Shown here: piece after piece, positions 3,709-56,224 of the stretch
Layout of the letters: every line of letters begins with the position of its first letter
How positions within the stretch are numbered: position 1 is the first letter of the stretch
Source of the DNA: Meiothermus sp. Pnk-1
GTDB taxonomy: Bacteria; Deinococcota; Deinococci; Deinococcales; Thermaceae
Length of the DNA: 64,000 bases
NCBI RefSeq assembly: GCF_003226535.1
Contig: NZ_QKOB01000001.1
Span: forward strand, 124,001-188,000
Direction: 5' to 3'
Translations under genes and position numbers: made by a program
Notes under the pieces: generated by a model
Databases searched by the model: none
What the model was told of the DNA's origin: nothing
Seen by the model: only the letters and a program-made list of their open reading frames with translations

Positions 3709-4989
3709 ATGAAGCTCAAGCGATGGTTGATAGGCGCGTTGACCCTCACCCTGGCTATGGGTGGTCTATCGTTGGCTCAAGGGGTGACGATTCGCATCGC
3801 CGGCGACTCCACCGCAGTGGGCGAGGGGGGCCGCTGGATGAAGAAAGTGGCCGAGGAGTGGGCCCAGAAAACCGGCAACAAGATCGAGTATATCGATGCC
3901 CCTGCCGACACCAACGACCGCTTGGCCCTCTACCAGCAGTACTGGGCGGCCAAGAGCCCCGATGTCGACGTGTACATGATCGACGTGATCTGGCCAGGGA
4001 TCGTGGCTCCTCACGCCGCCGATCTCAACCAGTTCTTCTCCAAGGAGGAGATCGCCCAGTTCTTCCCCCGCATCGTGGAGAACAACACCATCAAGGGCAA
4101 GCTCACCTCGATTCCCTTCTTTACCGACGCCGGGCTGCTTTATTACCGTACCGACCTGCTGAAGAAGTACGGCTACTCCAAGCCCCCGGCCACCTGGACT
4201 GAACTGCAGCAGATGGCCGAGAAGATCCAGGCTGGCGAGCGTCAGGCGGGCAACAAGGACTTCTGGGGCTTTGTTTTCCAAGGTAAGGCCTATGAAGGGC
4301 TTACCTGCGACGCCCTCGAGTGGATTTACTCCAATGGTGGAGGCCGGATCATCGAGCCTGATGGTAAGGTGACCATCAACAATCCTCAGGCCATCGCTGC
4401 GCTCAACATGGTGCGGGGTTGGATCGGGAAGATCGCCCCTCCTGGGGTGACCAGCTACGCCGAGGAAGAAGCCCGTAACGCTTTCCAAAGCGGCAACGCC
4501 GCCTTCATGCGCAACTGGCCCTATGCCTACAGCCTGGGCCAATCCGAGGGCAGCGCGGTCAAGGGCAAAATCGGCGTGACGGTGCTGCCCAAGGGCGCCG
4601 GGGTTGGAGGCCGGAACGCCGCTACCCTAGGGGGCTGGCAGCTGATGGTCTCGGCGTACTCCAAGAACCAGAAGGTCGCCGCCGATTTGGTCAAGTACTA
4701 CACCAGCGTCGAGGTGCAAAAGGACAACGCCATCTCCCTCTCGCGCTTGCCTACCCGCCCCGCCCTCTACAACGACAAGGATGTCCTGGCCAAGAACCCC
4801 TGGTTCAAGGAGCTGTTGCCGGTGTTCCAAAACGCCGTCGGCCGTCCTTCCGGGGTAACCGGGGCCAAGTACAACCAGGCTTCCGAGGCTTTCTGGACGG
4901 GGGTACACGACGCCATCACCGGATCCAAGCCCACCGCCCAGGCGGTTCGGGAAATCGAGACCAAACTCAAGCGTATCGTCGGGCCGTAA
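3709..4989 (+). CDS. Extracellular sugar-binding protein of ABC importer (trehalose/maltose type)
   Basis: This family 1 solute-binding protein (426 residues) captures sugar outside the membrane for the two permeases downstream. It has a typical signal peptide, [25 protein letters not shown], cleaved near LAQ-G. The mature part has the family-1 pattern, with [32 protein letters not shown] early and [32 protein letters not shown] late. The known Thermus homologue binds trehalose, maltose, sucrose and palatinose, so a disaccharide ligand is likely, but specificity is inferred. It lies first in the operon, behind a near-consensus promoter and operator. No ATPase (MsmK/MalK) gene is nearby, so a shared ATPase elsewhere is assumed. 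Confidence 0.87.
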
Positions 4990-23601: not shown

Positions 23602-24765
23602 TTAAGCGGTGGGTCTGTCCTCCCTGGGGCCAAGCAACTCACCAACGGCCAGGGCGGCTTTTTTACGCTGCGCCCTGAACAGATGTTGGTACGTTTGTTG
23701 GGTGAAGGCTACGCTGGCGTGCCCTACCCGCTCTGAGACTACCTTGGGATCAACCCCGGCCAGGGCCAGCAGAGAGACGTGAGTATCCCGTAAATCATGG
23801 AAGCGAATTTCTTTGACTTTAGCCCGCTTGATGATGGCTAGAAACTCCCGACGCAGGTTGCTCGGCTCGACGGGGGTTCCCACAGAAGTTGTAAACACCC
23901 AGCCCTCGTCAGCCCAGGCGTCCCCTATCCCCAGGCGATCCTTTTCTTGCCGCTCCCGATGTTGCTGCAACACCTCAAGCACATCGCTTGAAACGTCTAC
24001 CGGACGGCTCGAGCGGTACGTTTTAGGGGATTGAACAACCCGCTTGCTGCCAGCTTTGGTGAGGTTTTGCCGCACCCAGATCGCGCCTTCCTGCCAATCA
24101 ATGTCCGCCCACTTCAGCCCTAGCAGTTCGCCTCGGCGCATCCCGGTCATGAGGGCCAAGAAAAAAAGGGCATACAAGCGGGAGTGTTGAGCCTCAGCCA
24201 GGAAGCGCCAGACTTCCTCGGGCGTCCACACCTCACCGGTGTAGCGCGGTGCCTGAGGGGGCTTGACCCGGTCCGCTGGGTTCCAGGGCAACAATCCCCA
24301 ACGCACGGCGTCCTCGAGCGCGGCGTGCAAGGTCCGATGCACCAGCCGGACGGTCGTTGGGGAGAGGGTCTTAAGCCGCTTGGGGTCATTGGGGTGAATG
24401 CGCTTCTTAAGCAAATCAGCGTAAAGGTGAGTCAAGTGCAGCGGCTGTAAGCGCTGCACCGCTATATCCCCCAATATAGGGATTGCGTGTTTCTCAAGGG
24501 CGACTTTGTACCCGTAATGGGTGGTAGGTTTGACCCGGCGCTCTACTGAAGCCAGCCAGCGCTCACAAAACTCTTTGAGGGTGATCCGGTCGGGGTCAGG
24601 GAGCAAATTGCGGCCATAGGCCACCAGCAACTCAGCTAGCTTCTTGGCGGCTTCTTTGCGGGTCTTGGCGTACCCCCGGTGGCGCTTACCGCTGATCATC
24701 AACGAATACTCGTAGCGCCCGTCTGCGCGTTTGTAGATGGTGCCTTCATTGTTGGCGCGTTTCAT
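23602..24765 (-). CDS. int: Phage integrase, tyrosine recombinase
   Basis: This 387-residue protein catalyses site-specific integration at tRNA-Thr. An AP2-like arm-binding N-terminus (MKRANNEGTIYKRADGRYEYSLMI) is followed by the SAM-like core-binding domain (about residues 65-165) and the catalytic domain. All catalytic residues are visible: Arg in TGMRRGELLGLKW, His-x-x-Arg in RFHDLRDTHVS, His in RVGHASVAF and the Tyr nucleophile in TQQTYQHLF. It is transcribed towards attL. A related, broken copy lies at 61,437-61,913. Confidence 0.95.
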   Translation of the reverse strand: MKRANNEGTIYKRADGRYEYSLMISGKRHRGYAKTRKEAAKKLAELLVAYGRNLLPDPDRITLKEFCERWLASVERRVKPTTHYGYKVALEKHAIPILGDIAVQRLQPLHLTHLYADLLKKRIHPNDPKRLKTLSPTTVRLVHRTLHAALEDAVRWGLLPWNPADRVKPPQAPRYTGEVWTPEEVWRFLAEAQHSRLYALFFLALMTGMRRGELLGLKWADIDWQEGAIWVRQNLTKAGSKRVVQSPKTYRSSRPVDVSSDVLEVLQQHRERQEKDRLGIGDAWADEGWVFTTSVGTPVEPSNLRREFLAIIKRAKVKEIRFHDLRDTHVSLLALAGVDPKVVSERVGHASVAFTQQTYQHLFRAQRKKAALAVGELLGPREDRPTA

Positions 24766-26821: not shown

Positions 26822-26858
26822 GTTTCAATCCTCACTCGAGCTTTCGCCTAAGTACAGC
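26822..26858 (-). repeat. Solitary CRISPR-repeat-like unit B (37 nt)
   Basis: Read on the minus strand, the unit ends GTGAGGATTGAAAC and is preceded by an imperfect 9-bp stem with loop GAAA (TACTTAGGC / GCTCGAGTG). Its last 20 bases are identical to unit A at 55,569-55,605 on the plus strand. No second repeat or spacer follows, so it is not an array. It lies 8 bases upstream of the conserved 42-bp block. Confidence 0.7.
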
Positions 26859-26913: not shown

Positions 26914-27729
26914 TCAGTTCGTGGGTTTAAATTCTCCTTCTCCAAGGTTGTTGTCTGTGGGCGTTTCAGCCGCTTTCGGTTTTGCTTTAGTGCGTTTGCG
27001 CCTAGCTTCAAGCTTTTTGAGCGTTTTAGCAGCTTCGGCTGCACGCTCACCCTCGAGCGCTTCTCGCTTGATGACCTCGTTCACCAGGACCCGCTGAATT
27101 TCATCAAGACTTAGCTTTATATCTGGATTGAAGTGACGGATCTCTTTACGGATAACTTCAAGAACCGGCGGAGTCTGTAGCAGAGCTGCCATGAAGAAGC
27201 GGTTGGCAAGTTGCTGCTGGGCGTAATACTGAGGGAGGGCGGACTTGCTCAAGCCTTCTCGAGTAAGCAAGTACAAGGTGTCTACATGACTGGCCAGGCG
27301 AGGATTGAACTCAAGCAAATTGACTTCGAACACTAGCTCTTGGGTGATTGGCTTGGCAAAGATCACGCGATAGATTCGCCAAATTCGCCCATTGGTTAAC
27401 GCAACCCACTCAACGCCTTGATTGGCCGCATAATCCACGGCTTGCTTGACGTGCTGGTCTTTGAGCTCGAGGCCAATAGCTTTGACCTCGATAAGCATCT
27501 GGATCGCTCCATCTGTACGAATCGCCAGGTCACAGTATGTGCCTCGGATGGCCAGTTCAGAAGTGATCTCTGAATACTTGTCAAACCCAAATAGCTCTTG
27601 GAGAATGTCGGATACGATCATAACCGTATCTGACTCGTTCACATCCCGGGTATAGGCAGAATTAAGGACGGGTATAAACCGCTTGAGGGCCGCACTAACA
27701 CGCTCAGCCACCTTTTTAGGGGCATTCAT
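26914..27729 (-). CDS. Restriction-type nuclease-fold protein (type I R subunit N-terminal-like)
   Basis: This 271-residue protein has a PD-(D/E)xK-like core: DILQELFGFDKYSEITSELAIRGTYCDLAIR (Asp), then MLIEVKAIGLELKD (ExK), then QAVDYAANQGVEWVALTNGRIWRIYRV. That order is the HSDR_N-like pattern found in type I restriction R subunits and many stand-alone phage or mobile proteins. A helical C-terminus ends in a Lys-rich tail (LEARRKRTKAKPKA). The function in phage is unknown; it may act in defence against other phages. GGGAGGAA precedes the ATG. Confidence 0.7.
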   Translation of the reverse strand: MNAPKKVAERVSAALKRFIPVLNSAYTRDVNESDTVMIVSDILQELFGFDKYSEITSELAIRGTYCDLAIRTDGAIQMLIEVKAIGLELKDQHVKQAVDYAANQGVEWVALTNGRIWRIYRVIFAKPITQELVFEVNLLEFNPRLASHVDTLYLLTREGLSKSALPQYYAQQQLANRFFMAALLQTPPVLEVIRKEIRHFNPDIKLSLDEIQRVLVNEVIKREALEGERAAEAAKTLKKLEARRKRTKAKPKAAETPTDNNLGEGEFKPTN

Positions 27730-27825: not shown

Positions 27826-28488
27826 CTACCGTGCCGGTCTCCACATACCCAGTACCACGCCATAAATGCGGTCATACTCTCCCATCATGACGGGCGCGTA
27901 GGCGGGATTATCCGAGTACAGCATGGGCTGATTCCCAGCGTACTGCAACCGCTTGAGGATGATCCCATCCCCGTGCTGGTGCACTGCCACCACCCGGCCC
28001 GCCTCGGGTTGCCCCTCGGTCCAGCACACCACCACGTCGCCATTGAGGTAAGTGGGGCTCATGCTGTCGCCGCGCACCCGAACGGCAAATAGCTCAGACT
28101 CCGGTTTACCCCGCAGCTCGGGGAGGTCGAGGGTGACAAACTCCCCTCCCTCGTTCCACATTGGGAGGCCCGCTCCGGCATCTACTATAGGGATGCGGTA
28201 GCGGCGGACGGGGAGGGCGTCGGGGGGACGGGAGAAGCCGGGAAGCTCGAGACCGGTTTCTCGAGTGAATTGCTCGGGGGTCCATTGGAGAGCGCGAAGA
28301 AGGCGTTCTAAAGTAATGGGCTCCTTAGCCCACAAATAACGCAAAGAGCTTTCAGGATTGGGCAATACCTGAGTAGCCAACCACGATGCGCTTTTCCCTG
28401 CCATACGGGAAACTTTAGGCTGCGATAAACCTAAATCGCGTATGCGCCGACGAATAGCATCTGCCGCTTGATCCTCTACCAAAACCAT
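27826..28488 (-). CDS. Prophage CI-type repressor with S24 (LexA-like) autocleavage domain
   Basis: This 220-residue protein has an N-terminal helix-turn-helix (IRRRIRDLGLSQPKVSRMAGKSASWLATQ, about residues 12-40) and a C-terminal S24 peptidase domain. The probable cleavage site Ala-Gly is in PIVDAGAGLPMW, the Ser nucleophile in VRGDSMSPTYLNGDVVV and the general-base Lys in DGIILKRLQY. It should hold the lysogenic state and be inactivated by RecA during DNA damage. It is divergent from the Cro-like gene, with operator-like half-sites between them. Confidence 0.93.
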   Translation of the reverse strand: MVLVEDQAADAIRRRIRDLGLSQPKVSRMAGKSASWLATQVLPNPESSLRYLWAKEPITLERLLRALQWTPEQFTRETGLELPGFSRPPDALPVRRYRIPIVDAGAGLPMWNEGGEFVTLDLPELRGKPESELFAVRVRGDSMSPTYLNGDVVVCWTEGQPEAGRVVAVHQHGDGIILKRLQYAGNQPMLYSDNPAYAPVMMGEYDRIYGVVLGMWRPAR

Positions 28489-29063: not shown

Positions 29064-29078
29064 GGAAAGGAGGATCAA

Positions 29079-29393
29079 ATGCTCAAGGACAGTATAGCAC
29101 AGGCAGACAAGGCGCGGCTGGAGTGGATGCTGCAGCAGGTCGAGGATCACGTAGCCCGGCTGCGCGAGGAGCGCTCGCGGTTGGCCCCGGACAGCCTCGA
29201 ATGGGGCTGGGTTGACGAGGCCCTGTTCGAGGCCCGGTCCCTGCGGCGCAACCTGCGCACCGCCCTGCGCATGGCCGGATCGCTATTTGAATGCGAGCGT
29301 TGCGGTGCGATCCATAACCCCGAGTGGGTCGCAGCGTATGGCCTCCGCTGCGATGCCGAGTGCGACGGTCGGCTGAGGGAGGTGGAGGTATGA
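29079..29393 (+). CDS. Early phage protein with a Cys-rich zinc-ribbon-like C-terminus
   Basis: This 104-residue protein has a helical, charged N-terminal part (ARLEWMLQQVEDHVARLREERSRL) and a C-terminal pair of Cys pairs, CERCGAIH and CDAECDGR, which suggest a small zinc site. Its stop overlaps the next start (ATGA). The function is unknown. Confidence 0.7.
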   Translation: MLKDSIAQADKARLEWMLQQVEDHVARLREERSRLAPDSLEWGWVDEALFEARSLRRNLRTALRMAGSLFECERCGAIHNPEWVAAYGLRCDAECDGRLREVEV

Positions 29394-37594: not shown

Positions 37595-38858
37595 CGCTGA
37601 GGGACTCCTGGAGTTCATTCCCCGCGTCAGCCCCCACCTCGAGGCCCCCCGCCACCTCGAGCCGGTGGTGACGGCCCTCGAGCGGGCTGAGCGGGAGCCG
37701 GTGCGGGCCGTGATTAGCACGCCCCCGCAGCACGGTAAATCCACGGTGGTGCTGCACTCGCTCATCTGGCGACTGCTGCACGACCCTACACGCCGTCATG
37801 CGTACGTGACCTACGCTTCCCAGTTCGCCCGCGACCAGATGTATCAAGCCGCGCTATTAGCCAGGGAAGCCGGGTTAGCCCTCGAAAGCGAATCCCTCGA
37901 CCGCTGGCGCACCGCCCAGGGGGGAGGAGTGGTGGCCACCGGCATCGGCGGGCCGCTCACCGGCTACGCCGTGGATGGGGTGCTGATTGTAGACGACTAT
38001 GTGAAAAACCGCCAGGAGGCGGAATCCTCCACCCACCGCGAGCGCACCTGGGCCTGGTTCACCTCTACCGCCCTGACCCGCGTACACCCCGGAGCGTCGG
38101 TGGTGGTGGTGGCTACTCGCTGGCACCCCGACGACCTGGCCGGGCGACTGATCGCCGAGGGCTGGCAGTGGGTCAACCTGCCGGCCATCAACGAGGCGGG
38201 AGAGCCCCTGTGGCCTCAGCGTCGCCCCCTGCAGTGGCTCGAGGCCCAGCGCCGCCAGATCGGTGAGTACGACTGGCATGCGCTCTACCTGGGCCAGCCC
38301 AGGCCGCGGGGAGGCACTCTGTTCCGCGAGCCCACCTATTACGACCAACTGCCGGTAGACGGCTATCGCCGTGGGCGCGGGTTCGACCTGGCGTATTCCA
38401 CCCGCACCCACAGCGATTACAGCGTGATCCTCACCGGGCGCTACCTCGAGCGCGAGGGCGTGCTCTACCTCGAGGACTGCTGGCGGGCCCAGGTGGAGGC
38501 TCCGGTGTTCGCCCGCAGGGCCAGTATGGACCCCAGCCCCATGTACATCTACGCTCACGGAGTGGAGCGGGGCGCGGTGGACCTGTTCCGCCGCGATCAC
38601 CGCCTGCCCATCGTGTTGCGCGACGCAAGCCGGGCGGGGGACAAGTTCACCCGCGCCCAGGCGGCCATCGCCGCCTGGAACGAGGGGCGCATCCGGGTGC
38701 CCAGGAGCGCCCCCTGGCTCGAGCAATTCTTGAGCGAGCTAGCCGCATTCACCGGCCTGGACGATGAGCACGACGATCAAGTGGATGCCCTGGCCGCGCT
38801 GTGGGACGGGCTGAGCCTGGCGAGTGATTGGCAGGTGAAAGGAGAGCAAGCCGGATGA
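37506..38858 (+). CDS. terL: Terminase large subunit
   Basis: This 450-residue packaging motor has ATPase motifs Walker A STPPQHGKSTVVLHSL (about residues 70-85) and Walker B GVLIVDDYVKNRQEA, with the coupling segment VVVVATRWHPDDLAGRL. The RNase H-like nuclease has Asp residues in GFDLAYSTRTHSDYSVI and DDEHDDQVDALAALWDG. GTG 37,506 is the only start that keeps the N-terminal helix; it lies inside the small-subunit gene. It ends in ATGA overlap with the portal gene. Confidence 0.94.
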   Translation: MLDSLERIERSVRKLERWLPRSLPSTPRPDAEGLLEFIPRVSPHLEAPRHLEPVVTALERAEREPVRAVISTPPQHGKSTVVLHSLIWRLLHDPTRRHAYVTYASQFARDQMYQAALLAREAGLALESESLDRWRTAQGGGVVATGIGGPLTGYAVDGVLIVDDYVKNRQEAESSTHRERTWAWFTSTALTRVHPGASVVVVATRWHPDDLAGRLIAEGWQWVNLPAINEAGEPLWPQRRPLQWLEAQRRQIGEYDWHALYLGQPRPRGGTLFREPTYYDQLPVDGYRRGRGFDLAYSTRTHSDYSVILTGRYLEREGVLYLEDCWRAQVEAPVFARRASMDPSPMYIYAHGVERGAVDLFRRDHRLPIVLRDASRAGDKFTRAQAAIAAWNEGRIRVPRSAPWLEQFLSELAAFTGLDDEHDDQVDALAALWDGLSLASDWQVKGEQAG

Positions 38859-40285
38859 GCCTAGAACGTTTTGACGTGACCGGTCAGAGTGTCGGGTGGG
38901 CCGAACCGCCCCCCCTCGAGCTGCGCCTATCCCCCGACGCGGCCACCAACCCCCGCATCGAGGAGAGCCTAGCCAGCCTCACCGCTTTCGAGGCCAGCCC
39001 CATTCCCTGGCCGCTGGACCCCGCTACCCTGATCGACGTCTGGTACGGGAGCCCCTGGCTGGGGGCCATCGGGCGGCTACTAGGGGACGCCCTGGCCTCA
39101 GCCCGCTACGACCTCGAGCCCATTCCTCGCCGCCCCGACGGGACCCGGCTGGGGCGGGGGCCGGGGCAGACCCCCCACGACGAGCGGCAGTACGACCAGG
39201 GCATGGCCTGGCTGGAGCGCGAGGACCTGGGGCAGGACGGGCTCAGTCTGTACAGCCTGCCCGAGCTAGCGCGTACTCTGGCGCTGCATCTGGATCAGAC
39301 GGGCAACGCTTTTGTGGAGGTGGTGCGCGACCGGGCCGGTCGCGCCCCTGTACGTCTGGTGGTGCTGCTTCCGCAATTCGTGAGTTACGTGCTCCGCCGC
39401 GAGGAGGGCATCCGCAGGCCGATGCTCTACCAGCTCGATCCCTACTGGGGCCAGCAGTGGTTCGTGCCGTTCGGGACTCGTAAAGCCTGGGCCCCCGAGC
39501 GCGAGTTCCTCCACCAACGGCTACCCAACAGCGTGAGCAACGTCTACGGGCTGCCGCCCTGGATCGAGGCCCGGCAAAGCGTCGAAGTGGACAACGCCCA
39601 CCGGGCCTACCTGCGGGGCTTCTTCCGCTCTCACGCCGCCCCCCGCTGGCTGGTCGAGGTCACCCAGGACCCAAGCTGGAGCGGCCCCCAACCGGCGCAG
39701 GAGCAGGTGGATCAGGTGCGGGCCCTCATCGTCAACTACCTCTCAGCCAACGCCGGGGAGATGGCCGGGCGGAATCTGGTGCTCTCCTATCCGGGGGGCA
39801 TCCTGGTGAAGGTCACCCCGATGGACCAGAAGATCGAAGACCCCACCTTCGGGACCACCGCCAGCAACGCCCGCGATGAGATCATGGCGGTGCGCCACGT
39901 GAGTCTGATCAACCTGGGGCTTCCCGAGGGCGGCTATCGGGCCACCGCCGAGCAGCAATCCGACAACTTTGACCGGCAGGTGCTCGAGCCCTTCGCGGCC
40001 CCCCTGCTGGCGATGTTCAATCGGGTGCTGCGCACTCCCCCGCCCTCTGGGCTGGGCATCACCGACTACCGGCTGGTGGCTGAGTTCCGTGATGTGGACA
40101 TCCTGCAGCAGCGCATCGAGGCGGTCATCAAAGCCGCTGGGCGCCCCATCCTGACCGGTGACGAAGCCCGTGAGCTGATCGGCTACGAGCCGCGGGGGGA
40201 CGATGAGGTGCTGGTGCCTGCCGGGCTAGTTCCGGTAGGAGGACTAACTCCCCCACCCGGCCCCGACGATGGCAGCCCGGAATAG
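38855..40285 (+). CDS. Portal protein (HK97-type)
   Basis: The 476-residue protein forms the dodecameric ring at the capsid vertex. Family-like segments are LARTLALHLDQTGNAFVEVVRDRAG, LLPQFVSYVLRR, WAPEREFLHQRLPNSVSNVYGLPPW and EIMAVRHVSLINLGLPEGGYRAT with a C-terminal clip/stem. Order and size fit portals after terL. It starts in ATGA overlap with terL and ends 17 bases inside the MuF gene. Confidence 0.88.
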   Translation: MSLERFDVTGQSVGWAEPPPLELRLSPDAATNPRIEESLASLTAFEASPIPWPLDPATLIDVWYGSPWLGAIGRLLGDALASARYDLEPIPRRPDGTRLGRGPGQTPHDERQYDQGMAWLEREDLGQDGLSLYSLPELARTLALHLDQTGNAFVEVVRDRAGRAPVRLVVLLPQFVSYVLRREEGIRRPMLYQLDPYWGQQWFVPFGTRKAWAPEREFLHQRLPNSVSNVYGLPPWIEARQSVEVDNAHRAYLRGFFRSHAAPRWLVEVTQDPSWSGPQPAQEQVDQVRALIVNYLSANAGEMAGRNLVLSYPGGILVKVTPMDQKIEDPTFGTTASNARDEIMAVRHVSLINLGLPEGGYRATAEQQSDNFDRQVLEPFAAPLLAMFNRVLRTPPPSGLGITDYRLVAEFRDVDILQQRIEAVIKAAGRPILTGDEARELIGYEPRGDDEVLVPAGLVPVGGLTPPPGPDDGSPE

Positions 40286-41660
40286 CCCCCGCACCAGCCG
40301 CCGCCATCTGGCTGAGGTGGAAGCGGCGGTGGCTGAGTACGCCAAGCCGCTCTGGGAACGAGTGGCCGCTTGGCGGCTACGCTGGCTGCGCTTGGTGTTG
40401 CGCCGGATACGCCCCGACCTCGAGCGCTTGATTTCCATTCGCACCCCGCCCCCCGAGGCGGTGCTGCTCGAGCAGCTCATCCGGCAAGCAGCGGTGCAAA
40501 TTCCCCAACCGGACGCTACCGACCTGGCCCCTGACCTGCTCGATCTGGGGCGGAAGATCGCCCTGCAATACGGCTTCCTCCCCAACGACCCGCGCACGGC
40601 AACGCTGGAGAAAGAGTTCAAAGCCCTGCTCCAATCCGACCTCTCGAGCTACTGGCGCACCCTCACCGACCCGGCTACCCTGGCCCGGCGGTTAGCCGAG
40701 CTGCGGGGGGAGAACAAAACCACCGCCCAGATCATCCAGGCTGTGCAGCGGGAATACGGAGCGGAGTTCTATTCCGCCGAGCGCCTGGTCCGGACGCTCT
40801 ACAACTCCGGGGCCAACCGCGCCCAGTACGAAGCGCTGCTGGCCCAGGGCTATACCCACCTGCGCTGGCTCACCGCGCGGGATAACCGGGTGCGTGCGGC
40901 TCACGGTTCGTCGAGGTTTGACCACCGCCGCATGGACGGGGTGACCGTGCCCATCGGTGAGCCCTTCGTCACCCCGGCGGGCTCGAGGCTGCGGTACCCC
41001 GGTGACCGCAGCCTGGGGGCTCCGGCGGGGGAAGTGGTGAACTGCCGGTGTACGGTGGTGGGGGTGGTGCTCGAGGGTACGATGAAGGGCGTGGAGCGAG
41101 AGCAAATTCAAATTGGCGTGCACGTTCTCGCCTCCAGCAGCGTGTTGTCGCGTAGTAAGACCAAACAGGTATTCCGTGCCATCAACACCGCAGGATTGGA
41201 AGGGTTTTTGCGGGAACACCCTCTGGCTCGGTTGGATGTGGTAAGGGCCCAGGTAGTAGGGGGCCGCCAAATTAACGGGGAGTATGACGAGCAGACGCAG
41301 GAGTTATGGGTCAATGCACGCAGGAGCGAACGGACCTTCGCTCAGCCGTTCAAATTGGGGGCAACTCCCACCGTATCCGCTTTGGCCCCTACCCTCTTAG
41401 AGGCCATCCAGCGCAGCTTGATCCATGAACTAGCACACCACGTGTTCAGCCGAAAAATCTTCGCCACCCCACTTGAAGGCGCTGTTATAGAAGCTGCCAA
41501 ACTGGGCACACCGCTCACGTTCCGCGCCTCGGTGGGCACCAAGGAGTATTTCGCGGAGTGTTTCGCGGCATATACCTACGAACGTGACCTGCTCCAAAAG
41601 CATGACCCTGTCGGCTATGCTATGATCAGAAAGGTTCGAGAGGAGTTGGGTTTACCATGA
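40269..41660 (+). CDS. MuF-type head morphogenesis protein fused to HExxH metallopeptidase-like domain
   Basis: The N-terminal 270 residues are a Mu gpF/SPP1 gp7-like minor head protein, with the signature WLTARDNRVRAAHGSSRFDH, LRYPGDRSLGAPAGEVVNCRCTVVGVV near residues 200-268. The remaining 190 residues are unrelated to head assembly: a Zn-peptidase motif SLIHELAHHVFSRK (HExxH near residue 385) and, about 40 residues on, TKEYFAECFAAYTYERD, where the Glu could be the third ligand. This matches the MuF-plus-toxin fusion theme of polymorphic toxins and of injected phage effectors. The protein could be packed in the head and delivered with DNA. Activity is inferred. Confidence 0.85.
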   Translation: MAARNSPRTSRRHLAEVEAAVAEYAKPLWERVAAWRLRWLRLVLRRIRPDLERLISIRTPPPEAVLLEQLIRQAAVQIPQPDATDLAPDLLDLGRKIALQYGFLPNDPRTATLEKEFKALLQSDLSSYWRTLTDPATLARRLAELRGENKTTAQIIQAVQREYGAEFYSAERLVRTLYNSGANRAQYEALLAQGYTHLRWLTARDNRVRAAHGSSRFDHRRMDGVTVPIGEPFVTPAGSRLRYPGDRSLGAPAGEVVNCRCTVVGVVLEGTMKGVEREQIQIGVHVLASSSVLSRSKTKQVFRAINTAGLEGFLREHPLARLDVVRAQVVGGRQINGEYDEQTQELWVNARRSERTFAQPFKLGATPTVSALAPTLLEAIQRSLIHELAHHVFSRKIFATPLEGAVIEAAKLGTPLTFRASVGTKEYFAECFAAYTYERDLLQKHDPVGYAMIRKVREELGLP

Positions 41661-55019: not shown

Positions 55020-55565
55020 ATGATGCCAACCTACAAACCCTACACCGAGATCAGCAGCCTACCGGGATCAGGGGGAGTCCGACGCATCAAGGAATATCAC
55101 TTAGACCGCCACGCCGAGGCCCTGGCTAACCAGCTCGAGGCGCTGTGCCGTTTTCTGTTTTCCGCGGGCGGTATCGCCGAAGCCGGGACGGTGACGCTTA
55201 CCGGGTTTGACCTCCAGGTGCAGAATCGGCTGGGGCTCACCCTGGACGGACTGGCCCCGGTGCAAATAATCGACGAGACCCTGACCCTGCCCTCCACCCC
55301 AGCGACCGGCACCAAATGCCGGGTGGTGATGGCGGCGTTCCCTCAATTAGCATCCCCTGCCGACAGCTACACCGATCCCAGTACATCGGAGATGGTCTCT
55401 CAGCCGATGAGCGTGGGGCTGGGGGGGCTCTTGTTTGTCGAGGGGGATACCACCAACTATCCGGCTATTCCCAACGGGGCCGCCCCGGTGGCGCAGCTTA
55501 CCCGCACTTCTACGGACTACACCCTGGACCTGATAGAAAACACCCCGCCCACTTTCCGCTGGTAA
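55020..55565 (+). CDS. Phage tail-associated protein, unknown
   Basis: This 181-residue protein starts at one of two adjacent ATG codons after AAGGAGGA (MMPTYKPYTEISSLPGSGGVRRIKEYHLDRHAEALANQLEAL). A helical N-terminus is followed by a Thr/Pro-rich beta domain. It is the last gene of the tail block. The solitary CRISPR-like repeat A begins 4 bases after its stop. Confidence 0.65.
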   Translation: MMPTYKPYTEISSLPGSGGVRRIKEYHLDRHAEALANQLEALCRFLFSAGGIAEAGTVTLTGFDLQVQNRLGLTLDGLAPVQIIDETLTLPSTPATGTKCRVVMAAFPQLASPADSYTDPSTSEMVSQPMSVGLGGLLFVEGDTTNYPAIPNGAAPVAQLTRTSTDYTLDLIENTPPTFRW

Positions 55566-55568
55566 CGG

Positions 55569-55605
55569 GTCGCACTCAAGCCTTCGCTCGAGTGAGGATT
55601 GAAAC
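55569..55605 (+). repeat. Solitary CRISPR-repeat-like unit A (37 nt)
   Basis: The unit starts GTCG and folds as CACTCAAGC-CTTC-GCTCGAGTG (a 9-bp stem with one mismatch), then ends AGGATTGAAAC. That is the architecture of Thermus-type 36-37 nt CRISPR repeats, whose last eight bases, ATTGAAAC, form the crRNA 5' tag. Only one copy is present here, so it is not an array. It lies between the tail operon and the lysis promoter, in the direction of late transcription. Confidence 0.75.
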
Positions 55606-55611
55606 CGCCGA

Positions 55612-55684
55612 TAACGTGCTACACTGAATGTAGACACCCCTTTCAGGGGAAGCGGCCAAGCCGCACCTGAAGGGGGTTTTTCGT
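55612..55684 (+). promoter_or_regulatory. Late promoter-leader element, copy 3 (attenuator-like)
   Basis: GTGC-TACACT-GAAT (the -10 at 55,620-55,625) is followed by CCCC-TTTCA... (55,637-55,647). This can pair with GGGG at 55,646-55,649, or with CCTGAAGGGGG (55,666-55,676) to give a terminator-like stem enclosing GCGGC-CAA-GCCGC and followed by TTTTT. GAAGGGGG is also the ribosome site of the amidase TTG start at 55,685. Confidence 0.7.
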
Positions 55685-56224
55685 TTGCGGATCGTTTTGG
55701 ACCCCGGACACGGCAATTTTCCCGGCCCCGGCTACGACCCTGGAGTAATAGGGCCCCCACCCCTGCGGCGGCACGAAGCGGCGGCGGCACTCGAGCTGGC
55801 CCTCTCCTGCCGGATGCTGCTCGAGCAGGACGGACACGATGTCTATCTCACCCGCAACGGGCAGGGCATCTCGGGCAAGCCGGATCTTGCCTGGCGGCTG
55901 CGCTTTGCAGCCAACCTGCGGGCCGATCTATTCGTGAGCATCCATTTCAACATGATCGGCGGGGGCGGGCTGGTCTACCACGCGCCGGGGGCTGCTTCCG
56001 AGCGCTTCGCCAGGGGGCTGGCCCGGAGGGCCGGGCTCTCGAGGGTTTGGCCCTCGAGCGATTCGCGCTTTGGCGGGCTCTACATCGACGCGTTCCCCGA
56101 TGAGCGCCCGGCGGTGCTGTGGGAAGTGGATGGGATCGAGCGGGCCCCGCTACCGGGCGTACTGGGCAGGGGGGCCCGGCTACGTCTGGCGGGGGCGCTG
56201 GTTCAGGCAGTAAAGGACTTATAA
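55685..56224 (+). CDS. N-acetylmuramoyl-L-alanine amidase (endolysin, Amidase_3)
   Basis: The 179-residue endolysin starts at TTG. Zinc ligands and the catalytic Glu of the Amidase_3 family are visible: His in VLDPGHGNFPG, Glu in RRHEAAAALELAL, His in LFVSIHFNMIGG and the catalytic Glu in AVLWEVDGIE. There is no signal peptide or separate cell-wall-binding domain, so release needs a holin. It starts the lysis block behind the third late leader. Confidence 0.93.
   Translation: MRIVLDPGHGNFPGPGYDPGVIGPPPLRRHEAAAALELALSCRMLLEQDGHDVYLTRNGQGISGKPDLAWRLRFAANLRADLFVSIHFNMIGGGGLVYHAPGAASERFARGLARRAGLSRVWPSSDSRFGGLYIDAFPDERPAVLWEVDGIERAPLPGVLGRGARLRLAGALVQAVKDL

Follow-up and report, generated by a model that had tools for sequence, protein, structure and literature searches.

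Does a solitary CRISPR-repeat-like unit at the end of a phage late operon serve as an RNA decoy for the CRISPR-Cas system of the bacterial host? The question arises from a 37-nt unit, SRU1 (solitary repeat unit 1), found in a prophage of Allomeiothermus, a hot-spring bacterium. The whole 64-kb stretch of DNA around it, hereafter the window, was analyzed together with the host genome and related phages.

Two solitary repeat units in one prophage

Recomputation confirmed the position of SRU1 and its predicted hairpin, a stem of nine positions (55573-55581 paired with 55586-55594) with a single mismatch, A10 x C21, and the loop CTTC; the stem is followed by an 11-nt handle-like tail (55595-55605). 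The fold of SRU1 (-11.2 kcal/mol, z -1.6) is less stable than that of the host repeat (-17.5). The resemblance to the host repeat class extends over the full 37 nt, which rules out a likeness restricted to the short tag, the outcome that would have counted most against the original prediction: SRU1 shares 31 of 37 positions (84%) with the exact host repeat and 32 of 37 with one variant of the genus. At 84%, it would fail the 90% identity that SRUFinder demands. When compared with three genus variants of the repeat, the second unit, SRU2, reaches 33/37 at best; the match is in the 3' 27 nt, the 5' arm is degenerate, and the stem pairs are weak in the window. Both units therefore resemble a known CRISPR repeat along their whole length (31-33 of 37 nt). 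The next-best place in the window for the genus repeat variants reaches 24/37, and 24/37 was the maximum over 60 first-order Markov simulations of the window used as the null. GTGAGGATTGAAAC occurs exactly at both sites and nowhere else in the window. Judged by sequence, SRU1 and SRU2 are CRISPR repeats of one Meiothermus/Allomeiothermus class.

The units are 28.7 kb apart and inverted relative to each other. Neither has another repeat within 100 bp, and a search of the 64-kb window revealed no other repeat or spacer array near either of them, so the predicted solitude holds for two lone units. Both are located between called genes, inside a predicted provirus (23602 to about 61210) onto which the 37609-bp provirus contig IMGVR_UViG_2891621223 maps at 23602-61210. 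An integrase marks the left end of this provirus, which also encodes a CI-like repressor and contains replication, head, tail, and lysis genes (Table 1).

Both units are in sense orientation at operon ends. SRU1 terminates the late operon, after the last gene before lysis; this tail-region gene ends 3 nt before the unit, close to it as predicted, and a terminator conserved in the nearest relative begins 30 nt downstream. SRU2 follows the repressor operon, all on the minus strand, a position missed by the original prediction that suggests expression during lysogeny. The promoter scan detected no own promoter for SRU1 or SRU2. The TTGAAA in the tail was considered as a -35 box and rejected: the -10-like TACACT is just 15 nt off, and the scan was negative there.

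Table 1. Features of the window (G001 stands for A. silvanus DSM 9946, the source of the nearest relative)
Feature	Position	Strand	Remarks
Tyrosine integrase, left provirus end	23602..24765	-	
SRU2, solitary repeat unit 2	26822..26858	-	GCTGTACTTAGGCGAAAGCTCGAGTGAGGATTGAAAC
Gene directly upstream of SRU2 (HSDR_N_2-like, phrog_17239)	26914..27729	-	55-nt gap to SRU2
CI-like repressor, upstream in the operon leading to SRU2	27826..28488	-	phrog_4, E 5e-24
Protospacer	29068..29101		31/34 match, M. granaticius spacer
Protospacer	38290..38316		25/27 match, M. granaticius spacer
Protospacer	39965..39990		24/26 match, M. granaticius spacer
Protospacer	41004..41039		33/36 match, M. granaticius spacer; its array has repeats of the same class as the units
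Last gene of late (tail) operon	55020..55565	+	92% identical protein in G001
SRU1, solitary repeat unit 1	55569..55605	+	GTCGCACTCAAGCCTTCGCTCGAGTGAGGATTGAAAC
Intrinsic terminator	55636..55681	+	12-bp stem ACCCCTTTCAGG/CCTGAAGGGGGT, then TTTTT; fold of 55566-55690
Endolysin (Amidase_3), next gene after terminator	55685..56224	+	

The nearest relative is a prophage of A. silvanus DSM 9946 (G001), with 80-99% DNA identity over the shared parts. Its copy of SRU2 (G001:C1:1173776-1173812), GTTGCGCTCGGGCGAAAGCTCGAGTGAGGATTGAAAC, is near-perfect, a single position away from the genus repeat and with an intact stem; it overlaps the repressor stop codon, whose last base also serves as base 1 of the unit. 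Thus, SRU2 of the window derives from a nearly perfect repeat and has decayed or become chimeric. The second unit of the original prediction is real, lies on the minus strand, and did not arise by independent sequence drift, given the intact stem of the sister copy. Downstream of the sister SRU2, the flank matches the window at 99% identity, and the homology ends within the unit; a recombination breakpoint is probably situated at the 5' arm of SRU2.

The break in homology (window 26848, L144 10787) falls inside the repeat unit and marks a module exchange between two related prophages, which differ in the repressor and the following gene as a result.

At the SRU1 site of the sister prophage, the last 12-13 nt are left, 30 nt including the hairpin are missing, and both flanks are kept. 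Loss in the sister is the simpler assumption; had the window gained the unit instead, the leftover tail would be a coincidence. Since most of SRU1 has been lost there, the unit is dispensable. Past SRU1 comes ordinary intergenic DNA, which has its homologue in the sister allele that lacks the unit.

The host repeat class, its cas locus, and its targets

The host genome contains three further exact copies of the 37-nt GTCGCACTCGGGCGAAAGCTCGAGTGAGGATTGAAAC. With 1-2 changes, this is the array repeat in M. hypogaeus, M. granaticius, M. luteus, M. taiwanensis, and several metagenome-assembled genomes (MAGs), in arrays of up to dozens of units. Host contig C3 encodes cas3c, cas5c, cas8c, cas7c, cmr1, cas10, cmr3, cmr6, a CARF-RelE gene, and cas1c, with a canonical leader and an exact repeat after them; the leader after cas1c is conserved across Meiothermus. 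Arrays of the class follow orthologous cas1c genes (81-88% identity) in four loci (L009, L010, L018, and L024) and flank cas3c/cas5c/cas8c in a fifth (L021). Because the arrays adjoin these orthologous genes, the class is assigned, on grounds of gene neighborhood, to an I-C locus joined to a Cmr (III-B) module. The host thus possesses a locus of the subtype matching the units, with its leader and exact repeat. At 11 nt, the part after the unit stem is as long as the Cas5d/Cas5c 5' handle, described as 11 nt for Cas5d (PMC5965380). A unit of the second host repeat class (C5, type III-A) was also sought in the window and discarded, the best match being 23/35.

The host arrays are broken in this assembly: C3 and C22 start inside repeats, and C14 and C19 inside leaders. 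Two junctions were observed at cas loci. At the I-C class locus (C3:94587-95277; L040 16588-17260), the leader and one repeat run into a phage-like F-protein fragment; likewise, at a cas locus of the GTTGCAAAGTTCGTTAGCCTCGTAGAGGATTGAAAC class (C12:57777-56843; L041), the leader and one repeat are followed by an F-protein fragment. Both fragments represent the C-terminal part of a Mu-like phage F (head morphogenesis) protein, the N-terminal part being absent, and C12 continues after the fragment with a small ORF and an exact repeat of the I-C class. These junctions may be a real rearrangement, an orphan toxin-like module, or an assembly artefact. On the minus strand of L041, about 60-100 nt past the C12 repeat, there are two degenerate CRISPR-like units, GTTGCAGTGGGCAATTAAGCCCACTGAGGAGTTGAAA and GTTCGTTAGCCTCGTAAAAG.

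Other repeat-like units were seen outside arrays. An apparently chromosomal one (L148, G020:C144:7022-7058, minus strand) lies between a TACAAT box, which it follows closely, and an ORF that begins MGILDRLSRLIRANINDLIKRAEDP and looks PspA-like by eye. The inner part of the type III-A repeat (CCCTTACGGGGCTTTTTGTTTGCG) is solitary at L042 9262-9305 and 10485-10528, outside the C5 array.

To the collected loci belong 540 spacers of the GTCGCACTCGGGCGAAAGCTCGAGTGAGGATTGAAAC repeat class, many of which match Mu-like phages. Several M. granaticius spacers match the provirus with few mismatches (Table 1), and in the sister prophage there is a match of 35/35 positions to an M. granaticius spacer; in the window outside the provirus, there is no comparably good spacer match (E below 1e-4). 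The 18 best protospacer matches share an upstream GT(Y) motif, with GT at -3/-2 (G in 14 of 18, T in 13), in keeping with a type I system that targets DNA.

Solitary units in other phages and the origin of the units

Solitary units of this kind recur in other phages. In the Mu-like Meiothermus phages MMP7 and MMP17, identical over the compared 8.8 kb and counted once, the unit sits before a Mu-I-like protease gene. In a related Mu-like Meiothermus prophage from the MAG SKYG110 (L152), the unit is an exact repeat that follows a small gene at nearly the same location; in two IMG/VR relatives (L031 and L048) it is behind a small gene, after the capsid gene. Elsewhere it directly precedes the integrase start (L050) or lies between a methylase gene and an integrase gene (L151). 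Units of the Thermus type were found in L063/L068 (behind the head protease gene), L076, L064/L089, and L085. The unit has the sense of its neighbor in all nine judgeable placements (P = 0.002 under random orientation, a post hoc test). When the nine stem pairs are tabulated for 13 phage units, 95.7% of the cells hold a formed pair, and some changes are compensatory; the value is inflated, since several units had been selected for their hairpin and most had been found by the 3' end. The wider viral pattern CGGTGAGGATTGAAAC gave many chance matches in coding sequence, which were filtered by the hairpin.

In L152, the head morphogenesis gene is separated from the solitary repeat by a 91-aa ORF (3729-4004) with no PHROGs match. 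With acr-racr loci as the model, this ORF is a candidate anti-CRISPR gene.

The units could be scars, fragments of host arrays captured by recombination and devoid of present function. The deletion of most of SRU1 from the sister prophage, the degenerate 5' arm of SRU2 at the module-exchange breakpoint, and the existence of solitary repeats outside phages agree with such an origin. However, MMP7, L152, and L031/L048, members of one family, hold their units at different junctions, all in sense, with mostly paired stems and no spacers or array remnants, and the sister SRU2 has kept its whole stem one position off the genus repeat. We consider scars unlikely, though worth serious weight. Capture of a leader, suggested by a leader-like sequence in front of the MMP7 unit, was considered and set aside: a similar GCTAACxTAACGCTA follows the L152 unit, so that a phage element is likelier. 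A tblastx comparison of MMP7 with the host contigs produced noise only.

Alternatively, the units may be sites of mRNA processing or 3'-end stabilization, where Cas5c cuts or caps the phage mRNA and thereby tunes expression, perhaps sensing the host CRISPR system. They do lie within operons, often a few bases past a stop codon, and the GAGG...ATG/TTG spacing in L050 and MMP17 makes the tail a plausible ribosome-binding site there. In the window, however, SRU1 is followed by a terminator and the next start codon after SRU2 is 68 nt away, neither being at ribosome-binding distance, so a ribosome-binding role was rejected for both; moreover, no known system of such a kind was found. This explanation is improbable. 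More improbable still are homology sites through which the phage or its modules recombine with CRISPR arrays or other phages: the homology break inside SRU2, the host leader-repeat junctions that run into F-gene fragments, and array integration, named as an alternative in PMC10651486, speak for them, but the host junctions may be assembly artefacts, and the prophage has its own tyrosine integrase and mutually inverted units, which are hence not attL/attR.

Candidate RNA anti-CRISPRs and known systems

The reading that accounts best for these observations, and that we hold to be moderately probable, takes SRU1 and SRU2 of the Allomeiothermus prophage as candidate RNA anti-CRISPRs (Racrs) directed at type I-C. 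The decoy reading of the original prediction is thus the most likely one and finds support in part, namely in the solitary repeat of the host class, its place in the late operon, the matching cas locus, the targeting of the phage family, and the solitary copies in other Meiothermus phages. We infer transcription, Cas5c binding and cleavage, titration, and benefit to the phage in the following scheme: (i) SRU1 would be transcribed at the 3' end of the late-operon mRNA and SRU2 at the 3' end of the repressor-operon mRNA, each folding into the repeat hairpin within the phage mRNA, (ii) host Cas5c would bind the unit and probably cut past the stem base, at G26/A27, as in pre-crRNA, yielding fragments that end at G26 or start with AGGATTGAAAC, and (iii) Cas5c, possibly with Cas7 along the upstream RNA, would be held on guide-less RNA. 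Fewer working I-C complexes would then form, and also fewer from the Cmr module of the same locus. Cas5c would be sequestered on phage mRNA ends via SRU2 in lysogeny and via SRU1 in late growth.

Several features weaken the Racr reading: the stem mismatch of SRU1, its less stable fold, its identity below the SRUFinder cut, and the loss of its hairpin part in the sister; the degenerate arm of SRU2; the negative promoter scan for both units; the predicted late expression of SRU1, which would follow most CRISPR interference; and the unassembled state of the host arrays, which makes active immunity of this strain putative. A more specific version is tentative and rather doubtful: a two-phase RNA anti-CRISPR in which SRU2 guards the lysogen from self-targeting and SRU1 guards the lytic phase, promoterless, repeatedly gained at junctions in unrelated Thermaceae phages, and aimed at the I-C and III-B locus. 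If active, the units would extend RNA anti-CRISPRs to phages of thermophilic Deinococcota, demonstrate that decoys can be embedded in lysogenic and late mRNAs with no need for promoters of their own, and imply that survey cut-offs of 90% identity overlook diverged units. The phage variants of one repeat, with their stem and loop changes, form a testable set against one Cas5c.

The decoy principle is already known in phages; the double placement of units in one prophage is unusual. Viral CRISPR mini-arrays (PMC11656645) likewise show viruses carrying host-type repeats, but they hold 1-2 spacers between repeats, whereas SRU1 and SRU2 have no second repeat. A mini-array was rejected for SRU1: there are no two repeats around a spacer, and the sequence after the unit is also present in the sister without it. 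Nine viral solitary repeat units have been shown to block immunity as Racrs (PMC10651486). RacrIF1 of a Thiocystis prophage (PMC10651486) is also a solitary prophage unit mimicking a host-type repeat; it has its own promoter and a Cas6f system, whereas for SRU1 and SRU2 a promoter was not found and the expected nuclease is Cas5c. By analogy, the closest precedent is RacrIC1 (Camara-Wilpert et al. 2023), which comes from a Bifidobacterium prophage; this validated type I-C Racr sits 11 nt past a gene whose transcript it shares (PMC10651486). Like SRU1 and SRU2, it is a solitary mimic of a type I-C repeat placed right after a phage gene. The gene before RacrIC1 encodes an anti-CRISPR protein, and the activity of RacrIC1 has been tested, whereas SRU1 after a tail-region gene and SRU2 after a repressor operon are candidates known from sequence.
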